DNA of 64,000 nucleotides from Tautonia marina. Lineage in GTDB: Bacteria > Planctomycetota > Planctomycetia > Isosphaerales > Isosphaeraceae. The DNA is taken from assembly GCF_009177065.1 (NCBI RefSeq), contig NZ_WEZF01000001.1, positions 372,001-436,000 on the forward strand, read 5' to 3'. Below are positions 19,483 to 23,721 of this stretch, in pieces. Both the position numbers and the translations under genes were made by a program. Positions within the stretch are counted from its first letter, which is position 1. Every line of letters begins with the position of its first letter. The notes beneath the pieces were generated by a model. The model had not been told where the DNA came from. It ran no database searches and worked only from the letters and a program-made list of their open reading frames with translations.

Positions 19483-19668
19483 GGCGTGGTGATCGGGCTC
19501 AGAGTGGGGATCCTGACGAGACCGAGAGGACGGGGGCGATGAGGGGGACGCTCGGGCCGACCGATCGGCTCCCGGGGTGAAGGAGGGGGTTGCCTGGGTC
19601 CAGATCATGGTAGAGTGGTCGCAGGACCGTCTCGCAGGGTGGACGCCCAAGTTCTCAGGAGCATGATG

Positions 19669-21090
19669 ATGCGACGATGGAAGACGCTGCTGGCCGCCTG
19701 TGCCGCCGTGGTTGTGGGCGGATCGTCGGGCGTGTCCGGGGCCGAGACCCCTCAGGTCGGACAGCGGTATCCGGATTTCGTGCTGCCGAGCATCGAAGGG
19801 GGCGCTCCGGTTTCGCTCTCGCAGTTTCGGGGCAAGAAGGTGTTGTTGATCCAGTTCGCGTCGTGGTGAGCGGGCTGCCGCAAGCACGTGCCGGTCTGGC
19901 ACGACTCGACCCGAAGGTGGGTGGACGACGGACGCCTGGTCCTGCTCGGCGTGACCCAGGAACAGCATGCCGACCGGTGCCGCCTGTTCGCTCGTTGGCA
20001 GAAGTTCGAGTTCCCGATCCTTCACGACCCGATCAACGTTCTCCGGTCGCAGGCCGTGCCCATCCTTACCGCCATCGACGAGCACGGCATCGTGCGAAAC
20101 CTTCAGCCTCGTCTGGAGACGTTCGAGGCGGAATTCCTTGATCGCTCCTTCCCGGCCGAGACGGCCGAGGCCGAGAGTTCTCCTCCCCAACCGCCCGACC
20201 TTGACGCGTTGAAGGATCAAGTCCGACGAACCCGGACGGCCGACGCCTGGCGAAGCCTGGGTGATGCCCTTGTCCTGTGGGGGGGAATCGATCGGATCGA
20301 CGAGGCCATTGACGCCTATGAGCATGTCCTCGGACTTCGACCGGACGACGCCGACAGCCACTTCCGGCTTGGTGTTTGCTTCCGATTGCGGTTCGAATCG
20401 TCCCATCGACGACCCGGCGACTTCCAGGCGGCCGTCGATGCCTGGGGCGAGGCGCTCGATCGGGAACCGAACCAGTACATCTGGCGACGCCGGATCGAGC
20501 AGTACGGCCCTCGCCTGGCGAAACCGTATCCGTTTTACGACTGGGTCGACCAGGCCACTGCGGATCTTGCCACGCGAGGCGAGCCGCCGGTCCACCTGGC
20601 CGTCATGCCCACGGGAGCCGAGATTGCCCAGCCTTCACGCGAGTTCGAGGCGCTCGATCCGGTCCAACAGTCGCCCGATCCTCAGGGGCGAATCCATCGC
20701 GATCGGCTTGGACTCGTCGAGGCTGAGGTCGCCGTCGTCCCGGCGAAGGTCGGCGCTGGGGAAACCGCTCGGGTCCACGTGACCTTCCTGCCCAACGCAA
20801 TACGCAAGGCTCACTGGAATAACGAGTCCACGCCCTTGCGAATCTGGATTGATCCCCCCGAGGGCTGGCGCGTCTCTAATCGGTTGCTCTCCGCCCCTCA
20901 GGGGGACCGGCCCGAAACCAATGAGGTGCGCCGCCTCGACTTCGAGGTCGAGGTTCCCTCGACGGCAAGCGGCGTGACCCGGATCCCCGCTTTTGCGCTC
21001 TACAATGTTTGCGAGGATCTGGGGGGCGTCTGCCTCTTTCTCCGGCAGGATCTCGTCATCGAGGTCGAGGTGATGCAGGACGCGCCTTGA
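19669..21090 (+). CDS. Probable selenoprotein: redoxin domain with U-x-x-C, TPR and DsbD-alpha-like region
   Basis: Read through the TGA at 19867-19869 as selenocysteine, the frame encodes 473 residues. ATG 19669 is chosen because AGGAG lies seven bases upstream (two further ATGs precede it). Order: signal peptide (1-22), redoxin/TlpA-like domain (about 27-150) with FASW-U67-AGC70-RKH in place of the usual C-x-x-C and a cis-Pro at AVPILTAID, TPR-like helices (about 180-280), and a C-terminal beta domain resembling the DsbD alpha region (about 345-470). The sequence downstream of the TGA stays open for 1.2 kb in the same frame with normal codon bias. A GGUCU-loop hairpin follows the UGA. It is presumably an exported thiol/selenol oxidoreductase or peroxidase. 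Confidence 0.85.
19870..19913 (+). promoter_or_regulatory. Bacterial SECIS element
   Basis: Immediately after the in-frame TGA, CGTGCC (19887-19892) pairs with GGCACG (19898-19903) around the loop GGTCT (19893-19897). That is the same apical loop as in the E. coli fdhF SECIS. A lower stem, CGGG (19871-19874) with CCCG (19910-19913), completes the hairpin. The first loop G is 24 bases after the TGA, which is in the range accepted for bacterial SECIS elements. It would recruit SelB for selenocysteine insertion. Confidence 0.82.
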
Positions 21091-21115: not shown

Positions 21116-21817
21116 ATGTCGATGCGATTCAAGCGGCCTGGGATGAGCGTGGTGGTCCTCCTCGTCAGTGCCGAGAACGCGTGGGCAGGGATGCCCTCGA
21201 TCACCCTGACCGACCTGGCCAGGATGCGGATTCAGACGCTCTCATTCTTTCTGCTCGGAATCCTCATCTGCTCCTGGATTGTGCAGCGCATCTGGAACGG
21301 GCTGAGCAAGGAGTTCTCGTGGCTCCCTCGCCTGACGTTTGGCAAGGCGCTCGGCCTCATCACGCTTTGGGGGTTTCTGTTCGTCCTCATCCTCACCATG
21401 ATCTCCGGCGCCCGGGAATTGATGACTCCAGGCGCCTGGGAAAAGCAGGGGTTGACGTATACGATTGCCGATGAGTCTGCCTCGGAGGTTCCTCCCGATC
21501 CGCTCATGGAGGAACGCCGCCGGGTGCTCGATCGGCTTCGGATCGCCCTCTGGAGCTATGCCCGCAGCCACGACGGTCGCTTCCCGTCCCAGGAGGATCA
21601 GACCGCCATCCCGGACGAGGCGTGGCAGGTGCCCGACCCCTGCGGGATGCGGTATCGCTACGTGCCCGGACAGTTCGCCGACGAGGGGCACGAGCCGCTT
21701 GTCTATGAACCTGGGCTTTTTGGCCTCGATTGCCTGGTGCTGCTGACCGATGGTCGGATCGTCGTGATGAGCCTCGACGCAATTGAGCAAACGCTCGACG
21801 AGGAGCAAACCCCATGA
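21116..21817 (+). CDS. Hypothetical membrane protein
   Basis: I do not recognise a named family. The 233 residues contain a signal-like first segment ending in NAWAG, two clear membrane helices (about 41-60 and 80-99), then a soluble domain with WSYARSHDGRFPSQED and a CGMRYRYVPGQ segment. The soluble part resembles the pseudopilin-like YYxxxGxFP regions found in planctomycete proteins (DGRFPSQ), which usually sit in the periplasm. It follows the selenoprotein gene by 25 bases and overlaps the DUF1559 gene by four bases, so the three are likely one transcript. Confidence 0.65.
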   Translation: MSMRFKRPGMSVVVLLVSAENAWAGMPSITLTDLARMRIQTLSFFLLGILICSWIVQRIWNGLSKEFSWLPRLTFGKALGLITLWGFLFVLILTMISGARELMTPGAWEKQGLTYTIADESASEVPPDPLMEERRRVLDRLRIALWSYARSHDGRFPSQEDQTAIPDEAWQVPDPCGMRYRYVPGQFADEGHEPLVYEPGLFGLDCLVLLTDGRIVVMSLDAIEQTLDEEQTP

Positions 21818-22923: not shown

Positions 22924-23721
22924 ATGTGGTCTTCGCTCATGTTTGGATATTTCGAAACCAAGCGGCAACGCCGGAACCGGATTCGTTCCCAGCCCTTTCC
23001 CAATGATTGGGATGCGATCCTGCACAGGCAGGTTCCGCTTTATCAACACCTCTCCGACCAGGATCGTCAGGAACTTCAAGGGCTCATCCAGATCTTTGTC
23101 GATGAGAAACACTTCGAGGGATGCGGCGGCTTGACGTTGAACGACGCCATCCGCGTGACGATCGCTGCGCAGGCATGCATCCTCCTCTTGCATCGCGAGA
23201 CGGACCTCTACCCTCGACTGATTTCCATTCTCGTCTATCCGAGTACCTACGTGGCCCAGGCACGCCAGCCGATCGGCGGAGGGATGGTTCTCGAAGGCGA
23301 AATTGCCCGCCTCGGCGAGGCATGGAAGGACGGGGTGGTGGTGCTGTCCTGGGACGATGTCCTCGCCGGAGCCTCAGACATTCACGACGGCCACAACGTC
23401 GTGCTGCACGAGTTCGCCCACCAGCTTGACCAGGAGAATGGTCCCGCGGACGGGGCGCCGGTCCTTGAACAGCGCAGTCAGTACGTCTCCTGGGCTCGCG
23501 TGCTCGGCAACGAATACGAGCAACTTCGCCAAGATGCCTCGCTGGGGAGACCGAGTGTGCTGGATCGGTATGGCGCGACCAATCCGGCGGAGTTCTTCGC
23601 GGTGGCGACCGAGTGTTACTTCGAAAAGCCCAAGGAACTTCAACGCTCGCATCCCGAGTTGTTCGAAGAACTCAGGGCGTACTACCACTTTGACCCGACG
23701 GAGATTCGGGAGTTGGGTTAA
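22924..23721 (+). CDS. MtfA-like zinc peptidase (M90 family)
   Basis: The protein has 265 residues, the usual MtfA length. The zinc-binding HEFAH motif lies in VVLHEFAHQLDQ, and the downstream Glu ligand is likely in NPAEFFAVATECYF. Also typical are FPNDWDAILHRQVPLYQHL near the N-terminus and LYPRLISILVYPSTYV. MtfA of E. coli is a cytosolic aminopeptidase that interacts with the repressor Mlc; whether that partner exists here is unknown. The start is uncertain (ATG 22924 or 22939). No signal peptide is seen. Confidence 0.88.
   Translation: MWSSLMFGYFETKRQRRNRIRSQPFPNDWDAILHRQVPLYQHLSDQDRQELQGLIQIFVDEKHFEGCGGLTLNDAIRVTIAAQACILLLHRETDLYPRLISILVYPSTYVAQARQPIGGGMVLEGEIARLGEAWKDGVVVLSWDDVLAGASDIHDGHNVVLHEFAHQLDQENGPADGAPVLEQRSQYVSWARVLGNEYEQLRQDASLGRPSVLDRYGATNPAEFFAVATECYFEKPKELQRSHPELFEELRAYYHFDPTEIRELG

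Follow-up and report, generated by a model that had tools for sequence, protein, structure and literature searches.

The question raised by this locus is whether the TGA at 19867-19869 of the window (the whole 64,000-nucleotide stretch of Tautonia marina DNA that was analysed; all features given below are on the + strand) ends a gene or encodes selenocysteine (Sec). The frame from ATG 19669 meets this TGA as codon 67, which opens the U-A-G-C part of a W-U-A-G-C motif (FASWUAGC) and takes the place of the first cysteine of a C-x-x-C centre, as the first-pass annotation had stated, and then stays open in the same phase up to the terminal TGA at 21088-21090. The proposed gene (19669-21090) comprises 473 codons with Sec as codon 67; other in-frame ATGs lie at 19663 and 19666, and the AGGAG at 19657-19661 may be its ribosome-binding site. 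Codon bias is normal throughout, as had also been claimed, with a third-position G+C of 0.80 upstream and 0.76 downstream of the internal TGA. The mechanical list of open reading frames splits the gene into 19615-19869 and 19888-21090, and annotation in this genome as a truncated protein starting from GTG 19888 is likely. The reading favoured here, with a probability of roughly 0.88, is that the gene encodes an exported selenoprotein in which UGA 67 is decoded via a downstream hairpin, a redoxin domain is followed by TPR-like and Ig-like regions, and Sec is apparently the only form of the family.

Relatives were collected by a pattern scan of GTDB genomes, from which the best 80 of 134 were kept. 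One locus (L055) was excluded from codon counts because codon 67 lies outside its span; the remaining 79, the window, and two further genomes of the genus make up a set of 82 sequences, which are related and hence not independent. Alignment A2 contained 71 of 83 sequences. By record title the relatives belong mainly to Planctomycetota and Acidobacteriota, then to Gemmatimonadota, with a few Verrucomicrobiota and single loci titled Armatimonadota, Chloroflexota, and Actinomycetota; titles of metagenome-assembled genomes may mislead, and the 'Actinomycetota' locus (L009) falls among Planctomycetota in the tree.

The structure of the read-through protein was predicted with AlphaFold2 using 71 sequences (mean pLDDT 91.3, pTM 0.89). 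Residues 1-25 (19669-19743) resemble a signal peptide, and a hydrophobic segment before the redoxin domain was found by a simple hydropathy window in 76 of the 79 relatives with a readable N-terminus, which supports the export proposed earlier; the protein is probably exported. The ResA/TlpA-like redoxin domain (residues 29-160, 19753-20148, approximate ends) matched Pfam AhpC-TSA at 47.8 bits (cut-off 26) and also Redoxin. In the model this domain has a thioredoxin-like fold with a helix (68-86) directly after Sec67, whose putative partner in the U-x-x-C centre is Cys70 (TGC, 19876-19878), invariant in alignment A2. The TPR-like region that had been proposed is borne out by helices 178-302 of the model (20200-20574) and, at an E threshold of 0.01, by TPR_11 matches in 56/71 members. 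For the window protein itself, every individual TPR model stays below its curated cut-off.

The C-terminal domain (residues 346-469, 20704-21075) was predicted as an Ig-like beta sandwich, and residues 340-473 modelled alone gave a pLDDT of 94.7. It carries a conserved C-x6-C pair (Cys448 and Cys455, 21010-21033), of which Cys448 is invariant and Cys455 at least 90% conserved in alignment A2. By pattern, this spacing was found in 68/72 members; the exceptions have five residues between the cysteines (L062), are cut short (L018), have lost the second cysteine (L027), or are too short for the pattern with the pair present by eye (L092). The first-pass annotation had called this region DsbD-alpha-like, DsbD-alpha being an Ig-like sandwich. 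This label has weak support. The Cys pairs came into register when the C-terminal profile was aligned with DsbD_N by hhalign, a weak match of one profile pair (probability 16.6%, E 0.0015); 5/72 members matched the DsbD_N profile itself within E 0.1, the best of them at 0.0063, general Ig-like sandwiches were among the matches listed by Foldseek and VIA, and the listed fold-search matches contained no DsbD_N chains. With a limit of E 1, the C-terminal profile found no match among solved chains. In another genome of the genus (G042, L092:922-1782), a Prx-like domain with an in-frame TGA (ADW-U-PFC) and a 7-bp hairpin downstream of that TGA is joined to the same C-terminal Cys-pair domain. The occurrence of this domain with selenium redoxins in two settings suggests, without showing it, a joint function.

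The alternative that survives best concerns the reaction and accepts the selenoprotein: its selenium centre could be that of a peroxidase instead of a disulfide reductase. The Pfam AhpC-TSA and Redoxin matches are compatible with a peroxidase, as is the same-genus protein in which a Prx-like Sec domain (UPFC) is joined to this C-terminal domain. On the other side, the N-terminal domain found its best PDB matches mostly among thiol-disulfide proteins of the thioredoxin type, ResA and DsbE among them, while some peroxiredoxins ranked further down, and the motif is UxxC, as against the TxxU given for Sec peroxiredoxin in PMC13188914. A peroxidase is possible, and on this evidence the less probable assignment. 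By homology, the protein of the favoured reading is likely to be a selenol reductase or peroxidase acting outside the cytoplasm.

The hairpin that would steer decoding is located at 19887-19903, 23 nt after the TGA, and has the six-base stem (CGUGCC/GGCACG) and the GGUCU loop (19893-19897) described previously; E. coli fdhF has the identical GGTCT 18 nt past its TGA. A lower CGGG/CCCG stem, described at the same time, was absent from the predicted fold, in which GCGG pairs locally with CCGC. An RNA fold had been proposed as a check, and its outcome was divided: the minimal hairpin had a minimum free energy of -10.3 kcal/mol, and the 64-nt region folded no better than shuffles (z -0.80), so that folding of one sequence alone is unconvincing. 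It is the comparative evidence that carries the claim. Position and form fit the published bacterial SECIS (bSECIS) model, whose rules in PMC13188914 include a loop G and an energy of -7.5 kcal/mol; the loop G was present in 82/82 sequences and both rules held jointly in 76/82, the minimal hairpins of the other 6/82 failing on energy.

A full 5-bp core in either of two registers was found in 81 of the 82 sequences; the remaining one (L077) has an incomplete core with four adjacent pairs by eye. In the usual register (71/82), the core (GUGCC/GGCAC or an equivalent) encloses a loop of 5 nt at 23 nt downstream of the TGA. In 10/82 sequences, the hairpin is moved upstream, with the loop GUGCC 18 nt after the TGA, and in one (L083) both registers are possible. 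The loci concerned are L010-L016, L018, L027, L031, and L083; in a tree from a quick search, the eight of the ten shifted sequences that were present and L083 formed one clade of nine rows (SH-aLRT 100). Compensatory changes within the stem include replacement of the outer pair C-G by U-A in four sequences and of the third core pair G-C by U-A, A-U, or C-G in four; the outer pair is without standard pairing in 6/71 usual-register sequences.

It may be argued that such a hairpin is a mere by-product of the protein sequence and codon bias and no SECIS at all, since it lies within the strongly conserved codons H-V-P-x-W-H and the single-sequence fold of 64 nt is no better than shuffles. A null model, in which the protein was fixed and synonymous codons were drawn from the same genes (500 draws), gave the full core in a mean of 31/82 sequences and a maximum of 43, against 81 observed. 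The Gly codon at position 9 after the TGA is GGG in 37/41 cases, compared with 386/1918 elsewhere in the usual-register genes. One clade, moreover, retains the hairpin in the shifted register. These results make a by-product highly improbable. The register shift accompanies loss of one or both of the hairpin-encoded His residues (H-V-P-x-W-H to mostly A-V-P-A-W-N), and under the selenocysteine reading these residues would be kept partly for the RNA. The shift thus provides an example from nature in which an RNA signal has relocated within a conserved coding sequence.

The codon itself was TGA in 79/79 of the GTDB relatives that cover it and in 82/82 sequences altogether, a count that is not built in because the search patterns were made without codon 67. 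This answers the comparison of homologues suggested with the earlier claim, and with 81 further sequences carrying TGA, a sequencing error at 19867 is very unlikely. One member (L022) has an extra in-frame TAG five codons after the Sec TGA and is otherwise intact; assembly error or decay would account for it. If the TGA were a true stop, the locus would be a broken gene, or two genes with a restart at GTG 19888, and an open reading frame from this GTG to 21090 does exist. A true stop would, however, drift to TAA or TAG, yet TGA is kept in every sequence. Alignment A2 shows no variation at the flanking residues A64, S65, W66, G69, C70, and R71, and its 70 relatives retain 40-84% identity over the read-through protein. 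A true stop or broken gene is rejected as highly improbable.

Whole-genome profile searches, in which the best four or five candidates per genome were scored at E 1e-30 or 1e-20, extended the survey. The family was found in 42/392 Planctomycetota genomes (43 matches minus one distant relative, G102), of which 30 fetched loci and G324 have the TGA located at the motif, and the other 11 rest on an automatic count of one TGA within the match. In the phylum of a Gemmatimonadetes genome, 5/298 genomes matched, and in the phylum of an Acidobacteria genome, 15/297; 12 of these 15 covered nearly the whole profile with one TGA, and the remainder were a sequence that ends after the Sec position (G584), G580, and a distant relative (G666). 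G580 was considered as a Cys form and rejected as an ordinary TlpA-type WCGPC protein outside the family. The two distant relatives (L164 from G102, L163 from G666) show WASWUGCR with a TPR-like continuation. Plasmid records gave 16 matches, none spanning 80% of the query; the eight listed matches span 24-29%.

ASW-U-x-GCR was present in 44/44 loci fetched from the three profile searches; this set overlaps with that of the 82 sequences, sharing with it the window and some other genomes. Neither the 82 sequences nor the 44 fetched loci included a Cys form with the full architecture; as only the best candidates per genome and the best 80 of 134 relatives were taken, Cys relatives could have escaped. 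With this scope the family is apparently Sec-only. Because Sec stands in every sequence examined, it is of a kind that screens can miss, and a Sec-only family could reveal what selenium does and sulfur cannot.

The genome was searched for SelB, SelA, and tRNA-Sec (selC), three of the four selenium genes whose check had been recommended. The window genome (7.07 Mb, 80 contigs) has a SelB match of 367 bits (cut-off 242), an adjoining SelA match of 522 bits, and a tRNA-Sec with anticodon TCA (UCA). Reassignment of TGA to an ordinary amino acid, which would equally account for read-through in this gene, is rejected as the least probable of all the alternatives, being opposed by SelB, SelA, and tRNA-Sec in the genome and by the use of TGA as terminator in the same gene and in 31/79 homologous genes.

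SelB over cut-off was present in 40/41 family-positive Planctomycetota genomes and 13/21 negatives (p 0.0004), where the negatives were a non-random choice by the author from the same genome draw, the split was counted by hand, and the UGC relative G102 was not counted as positive. For the GTDB loci, 50 of the 80 were used, and 44 of the 49 genomes behind them had SelB over cut-off. Six gene-bearing genomes therefore lacked SelB over cut-off, namely G233 and five of the 49; 3/6 have a tRNA-Sec, and none was found in G233, G457, or G471 at E 1e-9 with 150 candidates scored per genome. In G471 (L011), the gene with its TGA lies on a 5.1-Mb record titled chromosome, with no SelB or tRNA-Sec match at the thresholds used. 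Taken together, machinery genes, invariant TGA, and hairpin conservation strongly support, at the level of sequence comparison, the earlier claim that the TGA at 19867 is read as selenocysteine, and none of the three refutations proposed with that claim applies.

In the mechanism proposed for this selenoprotein, UGA codon 67 would be decoded as Sec by SelB and tRNA-Sec, with the hairpin (19887-19903) steering this step. Once mature, the protein would consist of a ResA/TlpA-like redoxin domain with a Sec67-x-x-Cys70 centre, a TPR-like region, and an Ig-like domain with Cys448 and Cys455; outside the cytoplasm, the Sec67 selenolate would attack either a disulfide or a peroxide, and Cys70 would resolve the intermediate. 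Export, reaction, partners, and a possible function of the C-terminal cysteines are inferred, whereas the TGA position, the machinery genes, the conservation of the hairpin, and the class of the predicted fold come directly from the computation. A bolder version, which we regard as unlikely and put forward tentatively, is that of a family of exported enzymes that depend obligately on Sec and nowhere occur in a Cys form; the C-terminal domain with Cys448 and Cys455 would serve as an internal relay, reducing or oxidising the Sec67-Cys70 centre. If true, it would be a one-chain electron-transfer module with chemistry beyond what cysteine allows.

No neighbouring ORF family was found in more than 6/69 loci (crude clustering, many short flanks), so gene context names no function or substrate. 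In the window itself, a membrane-like ORF (21116-21817), without a Pfam match at E 0.001, lies immediately 3' of the gene; a 588-aa ORF at 15362-17128 matches DNA polymerase family A (68 bits), and the ORF at 22924-23721 encodes a Peptidase M90 family protein (311 bits).

Among known systems, the nearest curated model is NF041054 (WAxxUGC_long, NCBIfam), a 'ResA-like WAxxUGC motif-containing protein', which shares the ResA-like redoxin and a UGC motif (Sec by name). Its alignment spans residues 32-275, including the TPR-like part, and 71/71 members of alignment A2 matched it. With 55.9 bits, the window protein stays far short of the model's cut-off of 300. It differs from the model in its motif (U-x-x-C in FASWUAGC, against WAxxUGC) and in continuing into the C-terminal Cys-pair domain, beyond the reach of the match. 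From their sequences, the distant relatives in G102 and G666 are assumed to be of the NF041054 kind.

The 2026 review PMC13188914, whose table covers 119 families or subfamilies by its own statement, includes in Table 1 the rows 'Redoxin family protein' (PF08534, UxxC) and 'Prx-like thiol:disulfide oxidoreductase' (PF00578, UxxC/UxxU), represented by HEU0032618.1 and WP_010940744.1. As described there, both resemble the window family in carrying Sec as part of UxxC within a redoxin-type domain, and neither names a TPR or C-terminal domain, which sets the window family apart by description. No row for a redoxin with TPR was present in two of the three section 7 parts of the table, and 'TPR' and 'tetratricopeptide' are absent from the main text. 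In the GOS paper (PMC2398784), the pfam08534 UxxC group is Prx-like 3, with 2,608 in the last table column; this group is assumed to be the review's 'Redoxin family protein', and the figure is assumed to count Cys homologues, whereas no Cys form was seen in the window family. The family was not named in the covered parts of PMC13188914, PMC9312934, PMC2398784, PMC4807772, PMC12013277, and PMC5029168, supplementary tables lying outside this scope, or in literature searches.

Within these sources, it may be regarded as an unlisted, apparently Sec-only family within the redoxin selenoproteins, although one of the two generic review rows, compared by description, may include it; it stands out in that Cys forms are apparently absent and in that the hairpin shifts register in one clade. 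The DsbD N-terminal (alpha) domain (PF11412) resembles the C-terminal domain in a close Cys pair near the domain end, spaced C-x6-C in the window family and C-x5-C in E. coli DsbD. With the ResA, TlpA, and DsbE thiol-disulfide oxidoreductases, the window protein has, in the predicted model, fold and active-site position in common, and it differs from them in having Sec for the first Cys and two extra domains.
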